NCBI RefSeq assembly: GCF_014235875.1
Contig: NZ_JACJUK010000002.1
Span: 248,001-312,000 of the forward strand
Length of the DNA stretch: 64,000 nt
Direction: 5' to 3'
From: Croceivirga lutea
GTDB taxonomy: Bacteria; Bacteroidota; Bacteroidia; Flavobacteriales; Flavobacteriaceae
In this document: piece after piece, positions 6,412 through 51,969 of the stretch
How the letters are laid out: every line of letters starts with the position of its first letter
How positions within the stretch are numbered: position 1 is the stretch's first letter
Program-made: the position numbers and the translations under genes
The notes under the pieces: model-generated
What the model was told of the DNA's origin: nothing
Seen by the model: only the letters and a program-made list of their open reading frames with translations
Database searches by the model: none

Positions 6412-6567
6412 GATTTATTAGTTTAGTTAGTTGTAAAATCAGAATTATTCTTAAAGTAAAAGAAATCAGACCAAAATAACACAACCTTAACAATTTTTGT
6501 ACATCTATCTTAAAAACTTCTGACAATTAGATTCATTATCTTGCAAAGCCAATTACAGAAATGGAGA

Positions 6568-9500
6568 ATGATTAGGGTTTTAAAGGCATTTTTTCTTTTA
6601 ATTGTACTAGTAGGCTGTAATGAAAAAAAACAATCATATGTATTTTCAGAGCTCCCTTCTACTGCTACTGGAATTCAATTTTCAAATACACTGAAGCAAC
6701 ATCCAGAATTAAATATTTTAACCTATCTGTACTACTATAACGGTGCTGGGGTAACTACTGCTGATTTTAACAATGATGGTTTAGTTGATATTTATTTCAC
6801 CAGCAATCAAGGGGCTGACAAACTATATCTAAATCACGGAGATTTTAAGTTTACGGATATTACAACCATTGCCAATATTAACAATTCTAGTGGTTGGTCA
6901 ACTGGGGTTACACAAGTAGATATTAACGCGGATGGGTTATTAGATATTTATATTTGTAAGGTTGCTAACTACAAAAATCTAGCAGGTCATAACTTATTGT
7001 ATGTTAATCAAGGAATTAATGATGATGGCATCCCCATTTTTAAAGAACAAAGCAAAGATTTTGGTTTAGATTTTTCTGGATTTTCTACACAAGCCGGTTT
7101 TTTAGATTATGATTTAGACGGAGATTTAGACATGTACTTGTTAAACCATTCTGTTCATCCGAACCGAACTTATGGTAAAGGTGCTAAAAGAAAACAAGTT
7201 GATGCATTTGCAGGAGATAGACTTTACCAAAACAATGATAGCTTCTTTAAAGATGTTTCTTCAACTGCCGGAATTTTTCAAGGAAGTATTGGCTACGGAT
7301 TAGGGATTTCAATTGCAGATATCAATAATGACCGTTACCCTGATATCTACGTTGGTAATGATTTTTTTGAAAACGACTACCTCTACGTAAACCAAAAAAA
7401 TGGCACATTTAAAGAAGTTATTAGTCAAAAAAATCCTTTAGGCCACACTTCTCATTACTCTATGGGCAATGCACTAGCTGACCTTAATAATGATGGATTA
7501 CAAGACATTATCTCTCTAGATATGCTACCAGAAAATTTAAAAACCTACAAAACTTCTGGTTTAGAATACGGATTTCCTATTTACCAACAATATTTAAAAA
7601 ATGGGTACAATCCGCAGTTCATGCAAAACACATTGCATTTAAATAACGGCAATACTTTTTCAGAAATTGCTGAATTATCTGGAATTGCAGCTACAGAATG
7701 GTCTTGGTCTCCTTTACTTGCAGATTTTGATAATGATGGTTTAAAAGACATTTACATAACCAATGGAATCTTGGGTGCTACCAATGATATGGATTACATG
7801 AATTTTATTGCCAATGCTGATATTCAAAAACGTATTGAAGGTGGTATGAAAAGTTCTGACATGCCATTAACTAAAGAAATACCGGCTAAAAAAGTAACCA
7901 ATTATTTTTTCAAAAGTGCGAACGGCTACTCCTTTAAAAATGTTACTAAAGACTGGTCGCCAACATCAAAATCTTTCAGCAATGGGGCATCTTATGCCGA
8001 TTTAGATAATGATGGAGATTTAGATTTAGTGGTTAATAATGTAAATGAAAAGGCCTTTATTTTAAAAAACAACAGTAATTACAATCATGGTTTTTTAAGG
8101 GTAAATCTGGATGGAGAAAACTCAAATAAATTTGGAGTTGGATGCAAATTAGTTCTGTACCAAAAAGACAAATCTCAGACCTTAGAACATTTTCCAACAA
8201 GGGGTTATTTATCTGCAGTATCCAATACGCTTCATTTTGGTTTGGGTAAGGGCAAAATAGATTCTTTATTGGTTTTATGGCCTTCTGGAAAGTCTCAAAT
8301 ACTGAAAAATATAGAATCCAATACATTGCTAAGACTAAAAGAAAATGAGGCTCAGAATACCATTCCTGAATTTAAAGCAAAATCCAACTCTTTTCTAAAG
8401 TCAAAAATGGGTATAGGTTTTTTGCATAAAGAAAATGGCTCATTAGACTTTGACCGTGAACCATTAGCTCCTTTTGCCAATTCTAATTGGGGGCCAACTA
8501 TTGCAGTTGCAGATATTGACCAAAATGGTCTTGAAGATATTTTTCTTGGAGGAGCAAAAAATCAAGCTTCCAAGCTTTTTTTACAAAACACCGATGGTAC
8601 TTTTATACCTTCTCAAAATGAACTATTTGAGCAAAGCAAATTAAATGAAGATACCGCTTCACTATTTGTAGATGTAAATAATGATGGTTTTCTAGACTTA
8701 ATTGTGGCCAGTGGAGGAAATGAATTCAGCAATGGCACGGCAATTCAACCACGATTATATGTAAACAACAAGGGTATTTTAAAACTTAACAAAACTGGCT
8801 TTCCTACTATAGAAAGCAATATTTCTTCAATAAATAGTTTTGATTTTGAAAATGATGGTGATTTAGATCTCATTTTTACCTCAAACACCATTCCAGGAGC
8901 ATTTGGTAAAACCCCTAAGCAATATTTATTACGTAATAATGGAGATGGCAAATTCACAAATAGCACAATAGATTTGGCTTCAAAGTTTGCAATGGTTGGT
9001 AACGTTACAGAAAGTGTTGTCTTTGATATAGATGAAAATGGTTATGCTGATATTATTGTCGTTGGTCAGTGGATGCCAGTTACGTTATTTCTTAACAACG
9101 GTAAAGAACTAAAAAAATCTAACGTAGATGCATTTAAAAACACAAATGGACTATGGAATACTATTCACGCAACTGATTTTGACAATGATGGTGATTTAGA
9201 TATCTTCTGCGGTAATTGGGGGTTAAACTCTAAACTTAGTGCCAGCGCTGAAAAACCTTTGAAATTGTATAGAAATGATTTTGATGGTAACGGTAAAGTT
9301 GAACCATTGGTTACTTATTTTCATGGTGATATTGAAACTCCATTCGCATCCAAAGATGATTTAGTAAAACAACTTCCTTTTTTGAACAAAAGTTACCTTT
9401 CTTACCATGAATTTGCATCTGCAAGTGTCTCAGAGTTATTTGGTAATGACAAACTCAAAAAGGCAGAACAAAAATTTGTTACTGAACTTAAGAGTTGTTA

Positions 9501-9864
9501 CTTCGAAAATATGGGTAAAGGAAAATTCAAAAAGCATCCACTACCCTGGCTAGCTCAACAAGCTCCTATTTTCGACATAATTTCAGATGATTTTAATAAC
9601 GATAATAATACCGATATTTTAATTACCGGAAACAACTTTGAAATTAACACCCAACTTGGTCGCTTAGATGCTTTACGAGGGTTATTTTTGCAAAACGATA
9701 AAAATGAGGGTTTTAAAATTGAAATCACTCAAAACTTAGAAATACTTGGTGCTGTTAGAAACAGTAATACCATAACTATACAAAATACCAAAAACTATAT
9801 CATTGGTCAGAACAACGGTCCATTGTTAATGTTTGAGAAACTAAATGAAACAAATGAGAATTAA
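6568..9864 (+). CDS. FG-GAP/VCBS repeat lipoprotein with ASPIC/UnbV domain (paralogue A)
   Basis: A 1098-residue lipoprotein (start ATG 6568; lipobox ending Cys17, LIVLVGC). It carries many DxNxDGxxD-type calcium-binding propeller repeats (for example ADFNNDGLVDIYF, DYDLDGDLDMYLL, DLDNDGDLDLVVNN). At about residues 505-590 there is an ASPIC/UnbV domain: NKFGVGCKL, FPTRGYLSAVSNTLHFGLG, SLLVLWPSGK. A second set of propeller repeats follows to the C-terminus, so the layout is propeller - UnbV - propeller (CRTAC1-like). An upstream in-frame TTG at 6541 would put nine residues before a normal signal peptide and is less likely. It opens a tight operon and overlaps the next, paralogous gene. Function unknown; surface exposure is inferred from the lipoprotein signal and calcium-propeller content. 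Confidence 0.9.
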   Translation: MIRVLKAFFLLIVLVGCNEKKQSYVFSELPSTATGIQFSNTLKQHPELNILTYLYYYNGAGVTTADFNNDGLVDIYFTSNQGADKLYLNHGDFKFTDITTIANINNSSGWSTGVTQVDINADGLLDIYICKVANYKNLAGHNLLYVNQGINDDGIPIFKEQSKDFGLDFSGFSTQAGFLDYDLDGDLDMYLLNHSVHPNRTYGKGAKRKQVDAFAGDRLYQNNDSFFKDVSSTAGIFQGSIGYGLGISIADINNDRYPDIYVGNDFFENDYLYVNQKNGTFKEVISQKNPLGHTSHYSMGNALADLNNDGLQDIISLDMLPENLKTYKTSGLEYGFPIYQQYLKNGYNPQFMQNTLHLNNGNTFSEIAELSGIAATEWSWSPLLADFDNDGLKDIYITNGILGATNDMDYMNFIANADIQKRIEGGMKSSDMPLTKEIPAKKVTNYFFKSANGYSFKNVTKDWSPTSKSFSNGASYADLDNDGDLDLVVNNVNEKAFILKNNSNYNHGFLRVNLDGENSNKFGVGCKLVLYQKDKSQTLEHFPTRGYLSAVSNTLHFGLGKGKIDSLLVLWPSGKSQILKNIESNTLLRLKENEAQNTIPEFKAKSNSFLKSKMGIGFLHKENGSLDFDREPLAPFANSNWGPTIAVADIDQNGLEDIFLGGAKNQASKLFLQNTDGTFIPSQNELFEQSKLNEDTASLFVDVNNDGFLDLIVASGGNEFSNGTAIQPRLYVNNKGILKLNKTGFPTIESNISSINSFDFENDGDLDLIFTSNTIPGAFGKTPKQYLLRNNGDGKFTNSTIDLASKFAMVGNVTESVVFDIDENGYADIIVVGQWMPVTLFLNNGKELKKSNVDAFKNTNGLWNTIHATDFDNDGDLDIFCGNWGLNSKLSASAEKPLKLYRNDFDGNGKVEPLVTYFHGDIETPFASKDDLVKQLPFLNKSYLSYHEFASASVSELFGNDKLKKAEQKFVTELKSCYFENMGKGKFKKHPLPWLAQQAPIFDIISDDFNNDNNTDILITGNNFEINTQLGRLDALRGLFLQNDKNEGFKIEITQNLEILGAVRNSNTITIQNTKNYIIGQNNGPLLMFEKLNETNEN

Positions 9865-41978: not shown

Positions 41979-43094
41979 ATGAAGTTCTCAACTAAAATTT
42001 TGGTAGCCCCATTAAATTGGGGTCTTGGGCATGCCACAAGATGCATACCCCTAATCAATGCTTTACTAGAAAACAAATTTGAAGTTTTTATAGCTTCTGA
42101 TGGTGTAGCTCTTGCGTTGCTGCGTAAAGAATTTCCGAACTTACCATTTTTTGAACTTTCTTCTTACCAGATTAAATACGCTGAAAAAGGAAAAAATTTT
42201 AAGCTAAAGATGCTGTGGGATTCTCCTAAAGTTTTAAAAGCGATGGCTAAGGAGAAAAAGCAAATCAAAAAAATTGTTGAAGCTCATCACATCGACGGTA
42301 TAATTTCAGACAATAGACTTGGAGTATTTTCAAAAAAAATTCCTTGTGTATTTATAACTCACCAACTCAATGTTTTATCTGGTAACACCACTTGGTTTAG
42401 CTCTAAAATGCACCAAAAAATTATTCGAAAATTTGCAGAATGTTGGGTGCCAGACGTAGAAAATAAACCAAACCTAACCGGAAAACTTGGGCACTTAAAA
42501 AAATCAAAGCTTAAAATTAGATACCTGGGTCCGTTAAGTAGATTTGAAAAAACTAAGGTCGAAGAAAGATTCGATTTATTGGTGTTATTATCTGGACCAG
42601 AACCCCAACGAACCTTTTTAGAAGAAAAATTACTTGAGCAATTAATTAGCTATAATGGCAAAGTTGTATTCGTAAAAGGCAAAATTGAAGAGCAGCAAAC
42701 TCAAGAAAATATAGCATTAAAGAAAGGAAGCATTCAATTAGTCAACTTTATGCAGTCTAAGGAGTTGGCAGCTGCCATTAATGCCAGTAAGCTTGTGCTT
42801 TGCCGTTCTGGCTATACCACGGTTATGGATTTGGCTAAACTTGAAAAAAAGGCGTTTTTTATTCCAACACCTGGCCAATACGAGCAAGTATACCTTGCAA
42901 AAAGGTTAGACAAATTAGGTTTAGTGCCTTTTGCTAAACAAGAAGACTTTAAACTAAAAGATTTAAAAAGGGTAAAGCGTTATGAAGGATTAGCTAAACT
43001 TGAAGATTCTTCAACCAATTTTTCTGAGTTGTTTTCTGTTTTTTCTAGCGTAAAAGAGAATTCAGAACCCACATCAACTTCGCTTTCTACATAA
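41979..43094 (+). CDS. MurG-like glycosyltransferase
   Basis: 371 residues. The N-terminus LVAPLNWGLGHATRCIPL is the nucleotide-sugar glycosyltransferase GT-B start with the GLGHATR glycine loop. The C-terminal half has SGPEPQRTFLEEKL and LVLCRSGYTTVMDLAKLEKKAFFIPTPGQYEQ (kept here as separate short motifs: RSGYTTVMDL, PTPGQYEQ), the GT28-type donor-binding site. Probably cytoplasmic, with an unknown acceptor. The last about 38 codons overlap, in antisense, the 3' end of the histidine kinase gene by 115 bp, an unusually long convergent overlap. Confidence 0.85.
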   Translation: MKFSTKILVAPLNWGLGHATRCIPLINALLENKFEVFIASDGVALALLRKEFPNLPFFELSSYQIKYAEKGKNFKLKMLWDSPKVLKAMAKEKKQIKKIVEAHHIDGIISDNRLGVFSKKIPCVFITHQLNVLSGNTTWFSSKMHQKIIRKFAECWVPDVENKPNLTGKLGHLKKSKLKIRYLGPLSRFEKTKVEERFDLLVLLSGPEPQRTFLEEKLLEQLISYNGKVVFVKGKIEEQQTQENIALKKGSIQLVNFMQSKELAAAINASKLVLCRSGYTTVMDLAKLEKKAFFIPTPGQYEQVYLAKRLDKLGLVPFAKQEDFKLKDLKRVKRYEGLAKLEDSSTNFSELFSVFSSVKENSEPTSTSLST

Positions 43095-44074
43095 ATTTTT
43101 TCTCCGTGAGCTTCCACAATATGTTTTACAATTGCAAGGCCTAATCCTGAACCACCTTCTTTACGACTACCACTTTGATCTACACGGTAAAAACGCTCAA
43201 ATAACCTAGGAATATGCTGTTTCGGAATTCCTTCACCATTATCTGTAACCCTAACAATAACCTTATTGCGAATTAAATTCTCTACGCTAATTTCTGTTGT
43301 ACCGTTTTTATGACCATACTTAATTGAATTGACCAATAAATTGGTTAATACTTGCTGTATTTTTTCTTGGTCAGCATAAACCATAATAGGTTCTGGGTAT
43401 TCAATATCAAAAGTTAGCGTAATTTCTTTCTTGGCAGCTTTCATCTCTAGCAATTCAAATACATTTTGAATTAATTCTATAATGTCAAAATACTTTTTAT
43501 CTAAACGAAGGTTGCCTGCTTCGAACTTGGTGATTAAATCTAAATCTTTTACTATATAAATAAGACGCTCTACACCTTTACTAGCACGTTCTAAATATTT
43601 GGTGCGTACCTTTTTGTCTTTAATTGCGCCATCTAAAAGCGTTAAAATGTAGCCTTGAACCGTAAAGAGTGGCGTTTTTAGTTCGTGAGAAACATTACCT
43701 AAAAAGTCTTTGCGGTACTCTTCTCGAATCTTTAGGGTATCAATTTCAATTTTTTTGTCTTCGGCAAACTTTCCTAACTCCTCAGTTAAGGTTTTCATAT
43801 CTGTCGTAATTGGCTTTGACGAGAATGTGGCAGATTCTAAAAGCGAAAAATCATCATAAATCTTTTTAATTCGACGGTAAATAAATCGCTCTACACGAAC
43901 TTGAATAACTATAAGGGAAACCACGAAAACTAGCAAGCTAATGCCCAAAGTAGCCCACCAATTAAAAGTATTGAGAATAAGCTGAAAGACAATTAACATA
44001 GCGATAACCAATATGAAAATCATAAAAGATGATCGCAATGCAAACCTATATGACTTTACAAGCTTTGTAGCCAT
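42980..44074 (-). CDS. PhoR-like sensor histidine kinase
   Basis: 364 residues: two membrane helices (about 16-34 and 39-58), a short linker, the phosphoacceptor HELKTP with His130, the N-box NLLVNSIKYG, and the G-boxes DNGEGIP and GGSGLGLAIVKHIVE. There is almost no periplasmic loop, as in PhoR-type kinases which sense through a membrane partner. Its start codon shares one base with the response-regulator stop (TAATG), so translation is coupled. The C-terminal tail beyond the catalytic domain overlaps the convergent glycosyltransferase gene. The PhoR name is supported by the pairing with a PhoB-type regulator and the half-sites in the adjacent promoter, not by direct proof. Confidence 0.9.
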   Translation of the reverse strand: MATKLVKSYRFALRSSFMIFILVIAMLIVFQLILNTFNWWATLGISLLVFVVSLIVIQVRVERFIYRRIKKIYDDFSLLESATFSSKPITTDMKTLTEELGKFAEDKKIEIDTLKIREEYRKDFLGNVSHELKTPLFTVQGYILTLLDGAIKDKKVRTKYLERASKGVERLIYIVKDLDLITKFEAGNLRLDKKYFDIIELIQNVFELLEMKAAKKEITLTFDIEYPEPIMVYADQEKIQQVLTNLLVNSIKYGHKNGTTEISVENLIRNKVIVRVTDNGEGIPKQHIPRLFERFYRVDQSGSRKEGGSGLGLAIVKHIVEAHGEKIYVESEVDVGSEFSFTLEKTENNSEKLVEESSSLANPS

Positions 44075-44760
44075 TACAGTACAAACTTATAGCCTACCCC
44101 TTTTACCGTTTTAAAATGGTGGTCGCCTATTTTTTCACGAAGTTTTCTAATATGTACATCAATTGTTCTACCGCCAACAACTACCTCGTTACCCCAAACC
44201 TTATCTAGAATAACTTCTCTTTTAAATACTTTGCTTGGTTTTGAAGTCAATAAAGACAGTAATTCAAATTCTTTTCTAGGTAAGATAATTTCTTCACCGT
44301 CATTAATAATTTTATACTCTTCACGGTTAATCACAATATTGCCCACTTTTACAATATCTTCAACCTCTTCTTTATCTTCTTTAAGTCTTCTTAAAAGCGC
44401 TTTAACCTTGCTAACCAATACTTTTGGTTTTATAGGTTTGGTAATGTAATCGTCAGCACCAGCTTCAAAACCAGCAACTTGCGAATAGTCTTCACCTCGG
44501 GCAGTTAAAAAGGCAATGATACTATTTTCTAATCCTGGAGTATTACGTATAACCTCGCAGGCTTCAATACCATCCATTTCTGGCATCATTACATCTAAAA
44601 TAATTAAATGCGGTTGTTTCTTTTTAGCCTTAGCTACACCCTCTGCCCCATTCTTTGCGGTGTAAACCTCATAGCCTTCGGCAGATAAATTATAACTAAC
44701 AATTTCTAAAATGTCTGGTTCGTCATCTACCAAAAGAATGCGAATATCTTTTGTTTTCAT
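44074..44760 (-). CDS. PhoB/OmpR-type response regulator
   Basis: 228 residues from the ATG at 44760 (MKTKDIRILLVDDEPD); a start seven codons upstream is less likely. Receiver domain with D12-D13, phosphoacceptor Asp56 (LDVMMPEMDG), and Lys in the DDYITKPIKP motif. The C-terminal winged helix shows KEFELLSLLTSKPSKVFKRE, GRTIDVHIRKLREKIG and VKGVGYKF. It works with the kinase gene that follows and overlaps by one base. A divergent 175-bp region to the TonB receptor gene contains 11-bp-phased repeats of the sort bound by PhoB/PhoP regulators, so autoregulation and control of 44936-50951 are likely. Confidence 0.93.
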   Translation of the reverse strand: MKTKDIRILLVDDEPDILEIVSYNLSAEGYEVYTAKNGAEGVAKAKKKQPHLIILDVMMPEMDGIEACEVIRNTPGLENSIIAFLTARGEDYSQVAGFEAGADDYITKPIKPKVLVSKVKALLRRLKEDKEEVEDIVKVGNIVINREEYKIINDGEEIILPRKEFELLSLLTSKPSKVFKREVILDKVWGNEVVVGGRTIDVHIRKLREKIGDHHFKTVKGVGYKFVL

Positions 44761-44774
44761 GGTTGGAATATTTC

Positions 44775-44888
44775 TTAACATCCAAATGTAAATATATTAA
44801 ACACAATGGTTTTCACCCTTAACATTGATTTAATGTGGTAACACTAAAGTAACCTTATTGAAAAAAACACTTAACATACAAGTAACAT
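44775..44888 (+). promoter_or_regulatory. Array of phased TTAACAT/GTAACAT half-sites, putative PHO box
   Basis: Seven-base half-sites on one strand: TTAACAT 44775, TTAAACA 44797, TTAACAT 44819, GTAACAC 44838, GTAACCT 44849, TTAACAT 44871, GTAACAT 44882. Steps are 22, 22, 19, 11, 22 and 11 bp; the two adjacent pairs each have a 7-bp repeat, 4-bp spacer, 7-bp repeat, which is the layout of PhoB boxes, and the wording resembles Bacillus PhoP boxes (TTAACA). The last site ends 47 nt before the TonB receptor start; a weak -7 element (GTTCTTTG, 44908-44915) follows 19 nt after it. Confidence 0.55.
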
Positions 44889-44935
44889 GACATTTAAAGT
44901 GTGTAGCGTTCTTTGCGCCAAATTCTTACCTAGAA

Positions 44936-47863
44936 ATGAAATTGAAATTACTGATTTTTTCCTTGTTCACAATAATGTGCGCAAGTGCCCAGCAAACAGG
45001 AAGTGTTGTTGGGAAAGTTACAGACAGAGAAATGAATGATGACCCTCTTCCTTTCGCCAATGTTTTAATTAAAGGTACAACCACCGGTACTACTACAGAT
45101 TTTGATGGTCTTTATGAAATTGCTGACCTAGAGCCTGGTATCTACACCATAGAATTTAGTTATTTAGGCTATGAAACAGTGGATATTCCTAATGTAACCA
45201 TTGAAGCTGGTAAAGTTACCACAGTTAATGTACCCATGAGTGCAGGTGGTGGACTTTCTTTAGATGAAGTAGTGGTAACCACAGTTGCCAGAAAAGATTC
45301 TGAAGTTGCTTTATTATTAGACCAAAAAAATGCAGTTACTGTTGTTGAAAGTATTGGTGCTAAAGAGTTGGGTGATTTAGGTATTTCTGATGCTAAAACA
45401 GCAACAACCAAAATTTCTGGTGTTTCTGAAAGCGAAGCTTCTGGAGATATTTTTGTACGTGGGCTTGGTGATAGGTATTTATCTACCACGCTAAATGGTC
45501 TACCTATACCTTCTGATAACGTAGACAAAAAGAATATTAATTTAGGTTTATTCCCTACACGAGTTATTCAGAATGTAAGTATTAGCAAAACGTATGCAGC
45601 TAGAACCTCAGCAGACCAAGCTTCTGGTAATATTAATATAACCTCAAGAGAACTAATAGGTAGCTCAGAGCTAAGTGTTGGTATTTCTGGTGGTGTTAAC
45701 TCATCTGTAAATGAAGATGGAGCTAAAGATAATTTCAAAATTAGCCCCAATCTAGCTGATGAAACCACTTTTGGTTTTTATGACCCTAATAGTAATTTAA
45801 TTCAACAGTTAACAGAACAATCCTGGGACCCGTCCATAAAAAGCAATCCTTACAACTACGGTTTAAACCTAACTTTAGGTAAAAAGTTTTTTGACGGAAA
45901 ACTATCTTTTGTACTTACAGGTTCCCATGATGAAAGTTATAGATTTAATAGAGGAGTTTATCAAATCTTAGAATACGGTTTTGTTCAAGTTGGTGCTTCT
46001 GATTATACCACTTTTGAATCAGAAATTAACAATACCGCTTTATTAGATTTAACCTGGTTTATTAATGATAAAAACAAGTTAAAATCGACTACTACATATT
46101 TAAGCACCTTAACTGATGAGGTAGTTGAATTTGGTAGAAATGGTGAAGCGCAGGTTAGTGATGATACAGGTGCTTTTAGTAGTTTTGGAATTCCTTTAGA
46201 ATTTGTTAGAGACCAAAATACTAAGCAAACTAACCTGTTAGTAAGCCAATTACTTGGTGAGCATAAACTATCTGAAAAAAACCAGTTAAACTGGGCTTTC
46301 GGTTATAATTTATTGAATGCAGATGAACCAAACCGTATTCGTAATCAGGTATTTTTTGATACTACACCAGAAAGTTCAGTAGCGCTAAACTCGCAGGGTG
46401 GCTTTAACCAAAGAAAAGCTGCGCAGCTAATTGAGGATAACGAATACAATGGCTACATTAAAGATGTTCTACACATCTTAAAAGAAGAAGATTCTAATAA
46501 GGCTTTTGATATTGAGTTAGGTGTGTTCTATCGAAATAAAGAAAGAGACTTTAGTTCTGAATTCGTTGGGGTTGTAGAGTCTAATAATGTAGATAGATTT
46601 AGCACACGTTCTTCTAGTTTAGATGATTTAAATTCTATAATTTCTACTCAAAATTTTGGGAATGGTTCACTTGAAGTTCGCAGATTAAGTTTGAATCAAA
46701 ATGGTGTTCCCCAAGATATATATACTGGAGAATACACTTCTCAAGCGGCCTATGCCGACTTTAATGTAGCCTTAAATAAATTAAATATTAGTGCAGGTTT
46801 AAGAGCGCAAAAAGATGATATTAATGTTATTTACGATGTGGGTGGTAGTGGAACACGTTTAGTTGGTGAAACCAACCAAGAATACCAAAATTTCTACCCG
46901 AGTTTAAATTTAAAGTATACACTAAACGATAAGCATGCTTTACGTTTTGCCGCAAGTAGAACTATTACACTACCTGAATTTAAAGAAATAGCTCCTTTTA
47001 GATATGTTGCTCCTTCTGGACAAGAAGTTACAGGTAATGCTGATAATTTAACTGCTTCTTTTACCAACAACTTTGATATTAAGTGGGAATTCTTTCCATC
47101 TAATGATCAGTTAATTTCTTTAGCCGTTTTCTACAAAGACATTAAAGATCCAATTAACAGAACGGTTCAAAGAGGTGGTGAAAGTATTTGGACTTATGAA
47201 AATACCGGAGAAAAGGCCGAAGTGTTAGGTTTAGAATTGGAAAGTAAACTAAACTTATTGAAGCCATATTATAATGAGGAGAATGATGTGTATTCAGGAG
47301 TAGATTTAAGTTTGGTGTTCAATGCAACAGTAATGCATCATGAACAAGACCTAAAATTTGTACCTACAGATGACGGGTTAAGTGCCCTTGAATTTTTCAA
47401 ATTTGGAACTAACAACACTACAGGTTTAGAAGGTGCTTCTGATTTTATCTTAAACACCAACCTAAATCTTAAAACCTCATCTGAAAATCCATTTACAGCA
47501 TCTTTAAATGCTAATTACGCATCAGATAAAATATATGTTTTGGGTAGTCCTGAAGGTTTTGCTATCTACGACTATTCTTATAATGACAACATAATAGAGA
47601 AAGGTTTTGTGGTTTTAAACGGTAGAATCAGCAAAGAGTTCGCTGAAAAATGGCAAGTTTCTTTAAGCGGACAAAATCTTTTAAACCCTGAAATAAAAAG
47701 AACACAAGGTGTTCTTGATAATAGAAACGAAATAAGAGCTTTTTCTGATGACATTAATGAAAGGTTAGGGCCTAATGCACCAGAAAGAATTATTAGAACA
47801 GAAACCGTAAGATCATACAAATTAGGTAGAACTATTGGTATTGGTCTTACATATACTTTTTAA
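44936..47863 (+). CDS. TonB-dependent outer-membrane receptor with carboxypeptidase-regulatory-like domain
   Basis: 975 residues. Signal peptide to about residue 18 (TIMCASA), then a beta-sandwich domain of about 80 residues (GSVVGKVTDRE, FANVLIKGTTTGTTTDFDGL, FSYLGYETV), a plug (SGVSESEASGDIFVRGLGDR, LNGLPIPSDN, NVSISKTYAARTSADQASGN) and a barrel ending in Phe (GIGLTYTF). Unlike the gene at position 1, it lacks a SusD partner; instead a large repeat lipoprotein follows after 55 nt. It is divergent from the PhoB/PhoR-like pair and lies under a putative PHO box, so uptake of a phosphate-containing compound during phosphate limitation is my inference. Confidence 0.92.
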   Translation: MKLKLLIFSLFTIMCASAQQTGSVVGKVTDREMNDDPLPFANVLIKGTTTGTTTDFDGLYEIADLEPGIYTIEFSYLGYETVDIPNVTIEAGKVTTVNVPMSAGGGLSLDEVVVTTVARKDSEVALLLDQKNAVTVVESIGAKELGDLGISDAKTATTKISGVSESEASGDIFVRGLGDRYLSTTLNGLPIPSDNVDKKNINLGLFPTRVIQNVSISKTYAARTSADQASGNINITSRELIGSSELSVGISGGVNSSVNEDGAKDNFKISPNLADETTFGFYDPNSNLIQQLTEQSWDPSIKSNPYNYGLNLTLGKKFFDGKLSFVLTGSHDESYRFNRGVYQILEYGFVQVGASDYTTFESEINNTALLDLTWFINDKNKLKSTTTYLSTLTDEVVEFGRNGEAQVSDDTGAFSSFGIPLEFVRDQNTKQTNLLVSQLLGEHKLSEKNQLNWAFGYNLLNADEPNRIRNQVFFDTTPESSVALNSQGGFNQRKAAQLIEDNEYNGYIKDVLHILKEEDSNKAFDIELGVFYRNKERDFSSEFVGVVESNNVDRFSTRSSSLDDLNSIISTQNFGNGSLEVRRLSLNQNGVPQDIYTGEYTSQAAYADFNVALNKLNISAGLRAQKDDINVIYDVGGSGTRLVGETNQEYQNFYPSLNLKYTLNDKHALRFAASRTITLPEFKEIAPFRYVAPSGQEVTGNADNLTASFTNNFDIKWEFFPSNDQLISLAVFYKDIKDPINRTVQRGGESIWTYENTGEKAEVLGLELESKLNLLKPYYNEENDVYSGVDLSLVFNATVMHHEQDLKFVPTDDGLSALEFFKFGTNNTTGLEGASDFILNTNLNLKTSSENPFTASLNANYASDKIYVLGSPEGFAIYDYSYNDNIIEKGFVVLNGRISKEFAEKWQVSLSGQNLLNPEIKRTQGVLDNRNEIRAFSDDINERLGPNAPERIIRTETVRSYKLGRTIGIGLTYTF

Positions 47864-47918: not shown

Positions 47919-50900
47919 ATGAAAACGAAAGTCTTTAAAATTACAATGCTTTTCGTTGCGGCTTCAGCCTTGATTTTGTCAAGCTGTAGCAGTGATGATG
48001 GAGATACTGGCCCTACCTGTAGTGACGGTATCCAAAACGGAATAGAAACTGGTGTAGACTGCGGCGGTACTTGCCCGAACACATGTGAGGTAGAACCAAC
48101 TTGTACTGATGGTATTCAGAACGGTGATGAAACTGGTGTTGACTGTGGTGGTTCTTGCGATGCTTGTCCTGCTGAATCAGTTGATTTAACTACAATGAGC
48201 CCTATTACTGCTGACATGACCTTAGATGCAGCTGTTGAATACACTTTATCTGGTCAAGTAAGTGTTGAAAGTGGTGCAACCTTAACTATACCAGCTGGTA
48301 CGGTTATTACTGCTGCTGCTGCCTCTGGTGATGAGACTAGTACTTATTTGGTTATTCAAAAAGGTGGTGCTATTGATGTTCAAGGTACTTCTTCTAGTCC
48401 TGTAATAATGACTTCAAGCAACGAAACTCCTGGTGACTGGGGTGGTTTAGTTGTTGCTGGTAACGCTACTACTACTAAAGGTGTAGATGCTACTGCTGAA
48501 GTTGGTGAAATTACTTATGGTGGTACTGATGATGCTGATAGCTCTGGTAGCATTGAATACTTAATTATCAACTATGCTGGTGCTCAAATTAATCCTGAGT
48601 CTCAATACAACGGTCTTACTTTATATGCTGTAGGTTCTGAAACTACTATCGAAAACGTAGCTATCTTAAATGGTACTGACGATGGTGTTGAATTCTTTGG
48701 TGGAACTGTTTCTGCTTCTAAATTCTACTTAGAAAACAACCAAGATGATGCTGTTGACTGGACAGAAGGTTGGAACGGTACATTAACTGATGCTTATGTG
48801 TTACATACTGAAGCTGGTTTCTCTACGGCTGTTGAAGCTGATGGTGATAACAACAACCCATCTTTAGTAAACTTTACTGCGGTTTCTACTGTTGGTGGTA
48901 CTGCTTTACAATTCAAAAAAGAATCTGGTGCTACAATCACTGGTCTTTCTTTAACTGGTTATGACACTTCTATCGACTATAGAGATGGTGGTGCTGTTAC
49001 TAACGTAACTATCGAAGGTGAAACTTCTAACCCTGCCTTATCTTATGTTGCTCCTGCTACTGTTGATGTTGATATCTTTAGCTGGGTAGGCACTAACAAT
49101 ACTGTTGAAAGTAACGTATTAAGCGGTGCTATAGGTTCTGATTTAACTTTAGACCCTGCAATTGATTACTTCCTAGAAGGTAATTTAAGTATCGAATCTG
49201 GTGCTACATTAACTATCCCTGCTGGTACAAGAATTGTTGCTGATGTTCAGGCGGGTGAAGAAACTAGTACGTATATCGTAGTTCAAAAAGGAGCTCAAAT
49301 TGATGTTCAAGGTACTGCTGCTGAGCCAGTAATTATGACTTCTGTTAGCGAAACTCCTGGTGACTGGGGTGGTTTAGTTATCGCTGGTGACGCTACTACT
49401 ACTAAAGGTGTAGATGCTACTGCTGAAGTTGGTGAAATTACTTATGGTGGTACAAATGACACAGATAGCTCTGGTAGCATTGCATACTTAATTATCAACT
49501 ATGCTGGTGCTCAAATTAATCCTGAGTCTCAATACAATGGTCTTACTTTATATGCTGTAGGTTCTGAAACTACTATCGAAAACGTTGCTATCTTAAATGG
49601 TACTGACGATGGTGTTGAATTCTTTGGTGGTACTGTTTCTGCTTCTAAATTCTACTTAGAAAACAACCAAGATGATGCTGTTGACTGGACAGAAGGTTGG
49701 AACGGTACATTAACTGATGCTTATGTGTTACATACTGAAGCTGGTTTCTCTACGGCTGTTGAAGCTGATGGTGATAACAACAACCCATCTTTAGTAAACT
49801 TTACTGCGGTTTCTACCGTTGGCGGTACTGCTTTACAATTCAAAAAAGAATCTGGTGCTACAATCACTGGTCTTTCTTTAACTGGCTATGACACTTCTAT
49901 CGACTATAGAGATGGTGGTGCTGTTACTAACGTAACTATCGAAGGTGCTACTTCTGACCCAGCATTAACTTATGAAGGTCCTGCCACTGTAAGTGCATCT
50001 TTATTTTCTTGGGCTACTGGTAACGCTGAAGCGCAATCAGCAGTTTTAACTGGTTCAGTTTCAGGTGCTGTAACTCTTGATGCAAACATCACTTACTTTT
50101 TAAATAGCTCTTTAAGCGTTGAAGATGGTGGTTCATTAACTATCCCAGCGGGTACTTTAATCGTTGCTGATTCAGAAGCTGGTGAAGAAACTAGTACGTA
50201 CATTGTTGTTCAAAAAGGTGGTACTATTGATATTCAAGGTACAGCTGCAAATCCAGTAGTAATGACTTCTGCTAACGAAACTCCTGGTGACTGGGGTGGT
50301 TTAGTTATCGCTGGTGACGCTACTACTACTAAAGGTGTAGATGCTACTGCTGAAGTAGGTGAAATTGCTTACGGTGGTACTAACGATGCTGATAGCTCTG
50401 GTAGCATTGAATACTTAATTATTAACTATGCTGGTGCTCAAATTAATCCTGAGTCTCAATACAACGGTCTTACTTTATATGCTGTAGGTTCTGAAACTAC
50501 TATCGATAACGTAGCTATCTTAAATGGTACTGACGATGGTGTTGAGTTCTTTGGTGGAACTGTTTCTGCTTCTAACTTTTATTTAGAAAATAACCAAGAC
50601 GATGCTATCGACTGGACAGAAGGTTGGAACGGTACATTAACCAATGCTTATGTTTTACATACTGAAGCTGGTTTCTCTACTGCTGTTGAAGCTGATGGTG
50701 ATAACAACAACCCTTCTTTGGTGAATTTAACTTGTGTATCTTCTGTTGGAGGTACTGCTTTACAATTCAAAAAAGAATCTGGTGCTACTATTACTGGTCT
50801 TTCTTTAACTGGTTATGATACTTCTATCGACTATAGAGATGGTGGTGCTGTTACTAACGTAACTATCGAAGGTGCTACCTCTGACCCAGCATTAACTTAT

Positions 50901-50951
50901 GAAGGTGCTGCAACTGTTGATGTAGCTATTTTTGACTGGGCATCTAACTAA
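47919..50951 (+). CDS. Surface lipoprotein with Cys-rich motifs and three 309-residue repeats
   Basis: 1010 residues. The lipobox Cys23 (ILSSC) is followed by SSDDGD, an acidic stretch like the lipoprotein surface-export signals of Bacteroidota, so the protein is probably outside the cell. Residues 34-83 hold two 28-residue Cys-rich motifs (DGIQNG-x-ETGVDCGG-x-C). Then three repeats of 309 residues follow, each starting near LTLDxxxxYFLxxxLSVESG and LTIPAGT, and rich in Gly/Thr/Val strands (GDWGGLVIAG, IENVAILNGTDDGVEFFGGT, YVLHTEAGFSTAVEADGDNN). This suggests a right-handed beta-helix. Codon use is strongly biased (GGT, GCT, ACT), fitting very high expression. No catalytic motif seen. Co-transcribed with the TonB receptor; strong terminator downstream. 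Confidence 0.85.
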   Translation: MKTKVFKITMLFVAASALILSSCSSDDGDTGPTCSDGIQNGIETGVDCGGTCPNTCEVEPTCTDGIQNGDETGVDCGGSCDACPAESVDLTTMSPITADMTLDAAVEYTLSGQVSVESGATLTIPAGTVITAAAASGDETSTYLVIQKGGAIDVQGTSSSPVIMTSSNETPGDWGGLVVAGNATTTKGVDATAEVGEITYGGTDDADSSGSIEYLIINYAGAQINPESQYNGLTLYAVGSETTIENVAILNGTDDGVEFFGGTVSASKFYLENNQDDAVDWTEGWNGTLTDAYVLHTEAGFSTAVEADGDNNNPSLVNFTAVSTVGGTALQFKKESGATITGLSLTGYDTSIDYRDGGAVTNVTIEGETSNPALSYVAPATVDVDIFSWVGTNNTVESNVLSGAIGSDLTLDPAIDYFLEGNLSIESGATLTIPAGTRIVADVQAGEETSTYIVVQKGAQIDVQGTAAEPVIMTSVSETPGDWGGLVIAGDATTTKGVDATAEVGEITYGGTNDTDSSGSIAYLIINYAGAQINPESQYNGLTLYAVGSETTIENVAILNGTDDGVEFFGGTVSASKFYLENNQDDAVDWTEGWNGTLTDAYVLHTEAGFSTAVEADGDNNNPSLVNFTAVSTVGGTALQFKKESGATITGLSLTGYDTSIDYRDGGAVTNVTIEGATSDPALTYEGPATVSASLFSWATGNAEAQSAVLTGSVSGAVTLDANITYFLNSSLSVEDGGSLTIPAGTLIVADSEAGEETSTYIVVQKGGTIDIQGTAANPVVMTSANETPGDWGGLVIAGDATTTKGVDATAEVGEIAYGGTNDADSSGSIEYLIINYAGAQINPESQYNGLTLYAVGSETTIDNVAILNGTDDGVEFFGGTVSASNFYLENNQDDAIDWTEGWNGTLTNAYVLHTEAGFSTAVEADGDNNNPSLVNLTCVSSVGGTALQFKKESGATITGLSLTGYDTSIDYRDGGAVTNVTIEGATSDPALTYEGAATVDVAIFDWASN
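48018..48167 (+). repeat. Two tandem 84-nt units encoding a Cys-rich DGIQNG motif
   Basis: Each unit encodes C-x-DGIQNG-x-ETGVDCGG-x-C-x(2,3)-C with a 28-residue period (Cys34-Cys56 and Cys62-Cys83). Four cysteines per unit suggest disulfides or metal binding in an exported protein. Confidence 0.85.
48213..49139 (+). repeat. 927-nt repeat unit 1
   Basis: First of three in-frame units with a period of exactly 927 nt (309 codons), measured from identical landmarks (for example the TTAACTAT of LTIPAGT at 48282, 49209 and 50136). The core, about 48419-49020, is almost identical in DNA to the core of unit 2; the flanking about 325 nt are diverged. Confidence 0.95.
49140..50066 (+). repeat. 927-nt repeat unit 2
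   Basis: Second unit. Core about 49346-49947 is nearly identical to that of unit 1 and very close to that of unit 3; the opening part (to about 49340) and the closing part (from about 49950) differ clearly from the others. Confidence 0.95.
50067..50951 (+). repeat. 927-nt repeat unit 3, shortened at its end
   Basis: Third unit, 885 nt including the stop codon; it ends with DVAIFDWASN where the others continue into a linker. Its core (about 50273-50874) has more synonymous differences than units 1 and 2 have between themselves, for example in the segment encoding NFYLENNQDDAIDW. Confidence 0.93.
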
Positions 50952-51174: not shown

Positions 51175-51489
51175 ATGAAGAAACTTTACCTAACGCTTTT
51201 CTTATTCTTTGCAGTAGCATCAATGGCCTTTGGTCAACTAGATCAAACCTCATCAGATATTGATGGATTAAAGTTATATCCCAACCCAACTACTTCTGGT
51301 AAAATATTTATTAGTACTGCGCAAAATGCTGCTAAACAGATTGCTGTTTTCGACGTTCTTGGAACAAAAGTTTTAGAAACTACACTTCTTGGTAAGGAAC
51401 TGAGCTTAGCCGAATTAAAAAAAGGAGTTTATATAATTAGGGTTGTTGAGAAAGATAATGTAGCCACTCGAAAGCTAATTATTAAGTAA
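51175..51489 (+). CDS. Minimal secreted protein consisting of a type IX secretion C-terminal sorting domain
   Basis: 104 residues: a signal peptide (MKKLYLTLFLFFAVASMAFG, cleavage before Gln21), about ten linker residues, and then a complete type A sorting domain: LKLYPNPTTSGKIFIS, KQIAVFDVLGTKVLET, LKKGVYIIRVVEKD and the closing RKLIIK. Such domains normally sit at the end of large exported enzymes or adhesins and direct them through the type IX system. Here there is almost no cargo. It could be a decoy, a regulator of the secretion machine, a small surface component or a remnant. A second gene of the same design follows. Confidence 0.88.
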   Translation: MKKLYLTLFLFFAVASMAFGQLDQTSSDIDGLKLYPNPTTSGKIFISTAQNAAKQIAVFDVLGTKVLETTLLGKELSLAELKKGVYIIRVVEKDNVATRKLIIK

Positions 51490-51642: not shown

Positions 51643-51969
51643 ATGAAACAATTTTACTTTTTTTTCCTACTTATGAGCATCCCAATAGTTGTTGCTGGAC
51701 AAGATTTGGTTTCAGTAAACAACAAAAATTTTGAAGAAATTAAGGGGCTTAGGTTATATCCTAATCCGGCTTACGGAAACGAAGTTTACATTACTACTAA
51801 AAGTAATGATGATAAAGAAATAAAGGTTTTTGATGTTTTTGGTGAGGTAGTATTATCTAACAAGTTAGAAAACAATACGCTCAACATCACTAATCTTACC
51901 CCAGGTATCTATGTGGTACAGGTAGAAGAAAACAAAAAAACAATTACCAGAAAACTGGTAGTTAAATAA
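51643..51969 (+). CDS. Second minimal type IX sorting-domain protein
   Basis: 108 residues, built as the gene 154 bp upstream: signal peptide (to about residue 19, VVAGQ), short linker, and a type A sorting domain with LRLYPNPAYGNEVYITT, KEIKVFDVFGEVVLSN, LTPGIYVVQVEENKK and TRKLVVK at the end. Both proteins share order and length but are clearly diverged, so the pair is an old duplication that has been kept, which argues against decay. Separate promoter and a strong terminator make it its own transcription unit. Confidence 0.88.
   Translation: MKQFYFFFLLMSIPIVVAGQDLVSVNNKNFEEIKGLRLYPNPAYGNEVYITTKSNDDKEIKVFDVFGEVVLSNKLENNTLNITNLTPGIYVVQVEENKKTITRKLVVK

Follow-up and report, generated by a model that had tools for sequence, protein, structure and literature searches.

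The 64,000-nucleotide stretch of the Croceivirga lutea genome analysed here (the window) holds a two-component gene pair that is divergent from a gene for a TonB-dependent receptor. On the minus strand lie phoB (44074..44760), which encodes an OmpR/PhoB-family response regulator of 228 aa from MKTKDIRILL with the Pfam domains Response_reg and Trans_reg_C, and phoR (42980..44074), which encodes a sensor histidine kinase of 364 aa with HisKA and HATPase_c domains. On the plus strand, the receptor gene (44936..47863; 975 aa, with CarboxypepD_reg, Plug and barrel) is followed by a gene (47919..50951) for a 1010-aa lipoprotein made of three repeats of ~300 aa, each predicted to be a parallel beta-helix. 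This was the fold that AlphaFold gave for one repeat (~300 residues, pLDDT 91), Foldseek matched that repeat to the beta-helices of pectate lyases (E 6e-5), and the modelled repeat shares 83-84% identity with the other two. Downstream of the lipoprotein gene are two small secreted proteins (51175-51489 and 51643-51969) with little beyond a signal peptide and a T9SS sorting domain. At the opposite end of the locus, a plus-strand glycosyltransferase gene (41979..43094; Glyco_tran_28_C, PF04101) and phoR have overlapping 3' ends, with 115 bp in common (42980-43094).

In their order and domains these genes match the phoBR/PUSIV locus of Flavobacterium johnsoniae, i.e., the glycosyltransferase, phoR, phoB, receptor and lipoprotein genes correspond to Fjoh_0541 and Fjoh_0543-0546. 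The receptor is the counterpart of Fjoh_0545 by position, domains and context, the glycosyltransferase that of the phosphate-induced Fjoh_0541 (pf04101), and the lipoprotein resembles FII (Fjoh_0546), whose published description agrees with the predicted beta-helix (PMC8115612). F. johnsoniae differs in having an extra porin gene, Fjoh_0542, within the cluster (Fjoh_0541-0546), and its operator was not described (PMC8115612). Its response to phosphate depletion is known, with log2 fold changes of 8.0 for the receptor, 9.9 for FII, 5.4 for the glycosyltransferase and 3.1 for phoB, and by the authors' account neither the receptor nor the lipoprotein responded to depletion of iron or nitrogen (PMC8115612). 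The gene system is already known from that species, and it is the operator word and the promoter register described below that are new relative to the literature searched.

The best matches of the window regulator among NCBIfam models were PhoB models, yet both scored below their cut-offs (TIGR02154, 213.8 of 296.2 bits; NF053854, 210.5 of 270 bits), and the PnpS/PhoR models that topped the list for the kinase were also below cut-off. The genome encodes three full-length OmpR-type regulators, and regulators adjacent to pstS in other genomes (L178, L250 and L257) are 57-60% identical to the window regulator, versus 33-38% to the other two. Judged by these identities, the window regulator is a PhoB ortholog.

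Between the start of phoB (44760, minus strand) and that of the receptor gene (44936, plus strand) are 175 bp, in which an earlier note on this DNA had counted seven half-sites. Six of them, all on the plus strand, match KTAAC exactly (44775 TTAACAT, 44819 TTAACAT, 44838 GTAACAC, 44849 GTAACCT, 44871 TTAACAT and 44882 GTAACAT); the seventh, at 44797, reads TTAAACA and, with its one extra base, is no half-site. The two pairs to which the note assigned an exact 7-4-7 geometry, 44838/44849 and 44871/44882, were borne out, and the remaining steps include the multiples of 11 that it described (22 and 33 bp). By chance 1.1 KTAAC words would be expected in the intergenic region, compared with the six found, and the opposite strand of the region has none. 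In-phase pairs, i.e., those separated by multiples of 11 bp, number seven versus 0.05 expected, seven was never reached when the region was shuffled 20,000 times with its dinucleotides preserved, and the chance of the phasing, conditional on there being six words, is ~0.0008. Since the lone word KTAACAT is not enriched in the window as a whole (32 copies in 64 kb versus 38 expected), what is unusual is the clustering, strand and phase. TAAC-N7-TAAC occurs five times on the two strands of the window, two of these within the array; another copy, at 6477-6500 before a 1098-aa ORF (6568-9864), is without the TTTG register discussed below and is probably there by chance.

With the receptor as query, 16 loci were fetched and their upstream regions aligned. 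The alignment contains columns at fixed distances, namely TTAACAT, TTAAT, TAAC, TAAC, TTAACAT, TAACAT, TTTACA and then TTCTTTGC, with almost no indels, and the array words stay put as the flanking sequence diverges. The earlier note proposed to look for the half-sites in relatives that share the gene order, and five of them are conserved there at fixed offsets. Measured from the TTTG of the receptor promoters, TAAC is found at -29 in 15/15, at -73 in 14/15, at -92 in 13/15, at -40 in 12/15 and at -62 in 10/15, and a single 11-bp phase is common to 51 of the 52 TAAC words between -80 and -15. The promoter-proximal box of three units, TTAACAT-N4-GTAACAT-N4-TTTAAAG (44871..44899, plus strand), accounts for the words at -40 and -29; its third unit, at 44893, is degenerate here and is mostly TTTACAG in the relatives. 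An upstream box, GTAACAC-N4-GTAACCT (44838..44855, plus strand), supplies those at -73 and -62. Farther out on the same strand are the distal half-site TTAACAT (44819..44825), with its TAAC at -92, and, 11 bp after it, a degenerate unit, TTAATGT (44830..44836), whose TTAAT columns are conserved across relatives; the units at -92 and -81 do not fall into the 11-bp phase that the remaining units share, which the operator reading does not explain. The degenerate units at 44893 and 44830 had been overlooked in the earlier note, along with the promoter element GTTCTTTGC. Its first half-site (44775..44781, plus strand) is a genuine TTAACAT that occurs in the window only and not in nine phoB-adjacent relatives; it is probably incidental, and we do not count it as a member of the array.

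Four of the fetched loci (L033, L037, L040 and L047) have a dGTPase gene instead of phoB as the divergent neighbour. The array is kept in all four, largely intact in three and more changed in L047, and therefore serves the receptor promoter. The TAAC at -92 is also present in relatives with the dGTPase neighbour, and the 19-bp step, which had been proposed to divide two operators for the divergent genes, is conserved even next to dGTPase and so is no such divider. Just downstream of the receptor-lipoprotein pair, L033 (10083-10129), L037 (10374-10420) and L047 (9908-9954) have a second strong Pho-box promoter, which precedes a porin-like gene in L037 and L047 and a small CarboxypepD gene in L033.

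The register of the array is measured from GTTCTTTGC (44908..44916, plus strand), which presumably serves the receptor operon as its -7 element and whose TTTG lies at 44912-44915. TTCTTTGC was found in 14/14 of the aligned receptor upstream sequences, and a TTTG at fixed distance is also present in the pst/porin and PiT promoters. On the minus strand, TACATTTG (44783..44790) likely acts as the -7 element for divergent transcription of phoBR, as presumed from its fit to the Bacteroidota consensus, TAnnTTTG; with a single exception, the phoB-adjacent relatives have CAAANGTA at the corresponding place.

The same repeat was encountered at phosphate-transport genes. Among Flavobacteriaceae pstS genes picked by protein family, without use of the array, TAAC at 11 bp was the top upstream repeat of all 4-mers at spacings of 5-40 bp (11/23 versus 0.2 expected), a spacing of 33 came next, and several promoters have a second TAAC pair 44 bp upstream of the first. 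When pstS was sampled from the whole class Bacteroidia, the 11-bp TAAC repeat was present upstream in 15 of 30 cases. Several of the Flavobacteriaceae pstS genes trail a porin gene and so have no promoter of their own. TAAC-N14-TTTG stands upstream of 14 of 15 porin genes that precede pstS, and two further units at 11-bp spacing usually accompany it; these sites were chosen by the -18 column, and the -29 and -40 columns were not used for the choice. The one porin checked is PF07396, phosphate-selective porin O/P. Relative to TTTG, the porin-pst promoters share the 11-bp phase of the receptor promoter, and the promoters of the PiT transporter in all eight genomes (8/8, including this one: G000:C13, locus L221) carry TAAC-N7-TAAC, the first word lying exactly 40 bp before TTTG (0.04 expected); these offsets, -40 and -29, are identical to those of the receptor promoter. 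The in-phase repeat that the earlier note proposed to seek near pst genes therefore precedes pstS, phosphate porins and the PiT transporter alike. In Croceivirga thetidis (L187, 1450-3047), dGTPase, a Pho box, a CarboxypepD protein, a MORN gene and the PiT transporter form one cluster, and small CarboxypepD genes similar to the one there are found near Pho boxes in L033, L037, L174 and L186.

Genomes were scanned by pattern and model searches. A promoter model built from receptor sequences only (R1) had its own site as the sole convincing genome match, and a 48-position model (R2), derived from the pst/porin promoters, picked out strong sites next to receptor clusters in relatives. The window site itself scores weakly in R2, at about 10 bits, because of its last unit, TTTAAAG, and its differing linkers, so the evidence at this site is carried by phase and register, not by the full sequence. 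In the DUF839/PhoX control loci, all 76 ORFs lacked an upstream box. In the receptor loci, boxes preceded the receptor genes and, apart from these, just one or two small genes of CarboxypepD type belonging to the same clusters; no Pho box was seen on reading the sequence upstream of the window's glycosyltransferase gene. The promoters of PhoX (PF05787) were dropped as a test of the regulon, the family being mostly DUF839-type and of mixed function; in Croceivirga radicis (L076), TTAAG/TTAAT words at a period of ~11 bp lie upstream of a PhoX-like gene and are perhaps a degenerate Pho box. A second type of array, of TTTACATTAAATTAACATTAAATTTACA, occurs in many Flavobacteriaceae near a MORN-repeat gene (beside aspS in most) or rsmG, e.g., at G000:C13:227957-228078 in this genome (L063 5958-6079, L110) and in L117, L124, L128, L129, L137, L109, L127 and L131. 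Its sites often point towards one another or away from the gene, and because of the latter orientation it was set aside as a further target; MORN-type genes are also part of porin-pst and PiT clusters.

The Bacillus PhoP box consists of TTAACA repeats. It and the cyanobacterial SphR box have nearly the same word as the array, an 11-bp period and two or three units, but they belong to other phyla and promoter types, and the regulator is just a family relative. In the SphR box there are three CTTAACCT repeats with 3-bp linkers, a word close to that of the array (PMC1906773). Pho boxes in general are built of 11-nt units, and the word varies among groups (PMC4415409). The array is like the PhoB box of Escherichia coli (CTGTCAT) in its head-to-tail 7+4 units and their fixed place just upstream of a core promoter element, and also in its PhoB-family regulator and phosphate-transport targets (PMC4415409), but it differs in the word TTAACAT, the Bacteroidota TTTG promoter, the placing of the units 18, 29 and 40 bp before TTTG and the extra box at -62/-73. 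Nearer to C. lutea, Riemerella anatipestifer, of the same order of bacteria, has a PhoB-type regulator, PhoP, that was shown to bind in vitro and whose DAP-seq motif has the same core word (TTTAACA), a TonB receptor promoter being among those tested; the motif was compared with that of ArcA, and neither a phosphate regulon nor a promoter register was given (PMC9603813). PhoB of Bacteroides fragilis binds the pst promoter, and no box sequence was found in the text of that paper (PMC3547664). A Bacteroidota Pho box with the geometry of the array was not found in the freely accessible literature searched.

Taken together, the array is very probably the PhoB operator, i.e., the Pho box, of the TonB-receptor/lipoprotein operon. 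The architecture of PhoB boxes, which the earlier note had recognised, is evident in the seven conserved bases repeated directly at an 11-bp period (in the two exact 7-4-7 pairs), in the fixed position relative to the promoter, in a repeat common to the phosphate-acquisition genes of the genome and its group (pst, porin and PiT), and in the PhoB ortholog that is encoded next door; the E. coli-type word CTGTCAT is lacking, the word here being KTAACAT. That PhoBR, the receptor and the repeat lipoprotein make up a phosphate-starvation surface system, also its proposal, is upheld by the conservation of the array, by its sharing with phosphate-transport genes and by the phosphate induction of the F. 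johnsoniae cluster (PMC8115612). For C. lutea itself we infer the binding of PhoB, the activation and the phosphate response. Phosphorylated PhoB, the product of the neighbouring gene, would bind the 11-bp units head to tail, occupying a proximal box of three units 18, 29 and 40 bp upstream of TTTG and, at 62 and 73 bp, an upstream box that is farther away by two to three turns of the helix. Bound PhoB would then bring RNA polymerase to a promoter that has no good upstream recognition element, and scarcity of phosphate would thereby switch on the receptor and its surface lipoprotein with the beta-helix fold, as well as PiT, which is encoded elsewhere.

Other readings of the array were weighed against this one. 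A chance cluster of AT-rich words, which the unenriched lone KTAACAT might bring to mind, has a negligible probability given the phasing unmatched by any shuffle and the positions held amid diverging flanks; the conservation of the array, together with the PiT and pst promoters, already rules it out. It is very unlikely that the operator belongs to another OmpR-family regulator: two further full-length members are encoded in the genome, all members of the family bind phased direct repeats, the word and period are common among them, and TTAAC words also stand before an RprX-like kinase, but the array adjoins phoB, its repeat and register are shared by the pst/porin and PiT promoters, and the pstS-adjacent regulators are orthologs of the window PhoB, not of the other two.

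The position of the array between two divergent promoters, together with the ~8-fold increase of phoB at low phosphate in F. johnsoniae (PMC8115612), could also mean that it mainly serves autoregulation of phoBR, with the receptor a bystander; this is highly improbable, as the units face the receptor promoter at a fixed register and are kept when dGTPase replaces phoB, and the unit nearest phoB, 44775, is the one that is not conserved. PhoB orthologs may instead be broad regulators, with the receptor answering another signal besides or instead of phosphate, as might be surmised from Riemerella, in which PhoP has binding sites before several hundred genes and was linked by the authors to stress and virulence (PMC9603813), and pstS was up, not down, in a double mutant (PMC5399024). 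We regard this as unlikely in view of the F. johnsoniae receptor and lipoprotein, which respond to depletion of phosphate and, by the authors' account, not of iron or nitrogen (PMC8115612).

Neither PhoU nor PstS was detected in the genome (no match to PF01895 or TIGR02136), and the classic Pst-PhoU-PhoR sensing route is therefore absent. The PiT transporter (L221 1423-3693, G000:C13), with a Pho box upstream, has 757 aa and a long C-terminal extension that is helical by eye and for which there was no Pfam match and no convincing PDB sequence match. A rather doubtful, wholly tentative proposal is that this is a Pho system lacking Pst and PhoU, in which the lone Pho-boxed PiT might take up phosphate and also signal the phosphate level to PhoR, the collection of phosphate compounds at the surface might fall to the receptor and the lipoprotein, and the operator might be one class-wide Bacteroidia Pho box in fixed phase to TTTG.

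For genomes that have neither Pst nor PhoU, the means by which PhoR detects phosphate thus becomes a directly testable question. More broadly, Bacteroidota are major degraders of organic phosphorus, and the rule that emerges, TAAC units 11 bp apart and 18, 29 and 40 bp before TTTG, would make phosphate regulons readable in many Bacteroidia genomes and help to place orphan TonB receptors and lipoproteins in phosphate rather than carbohydrate uptake.
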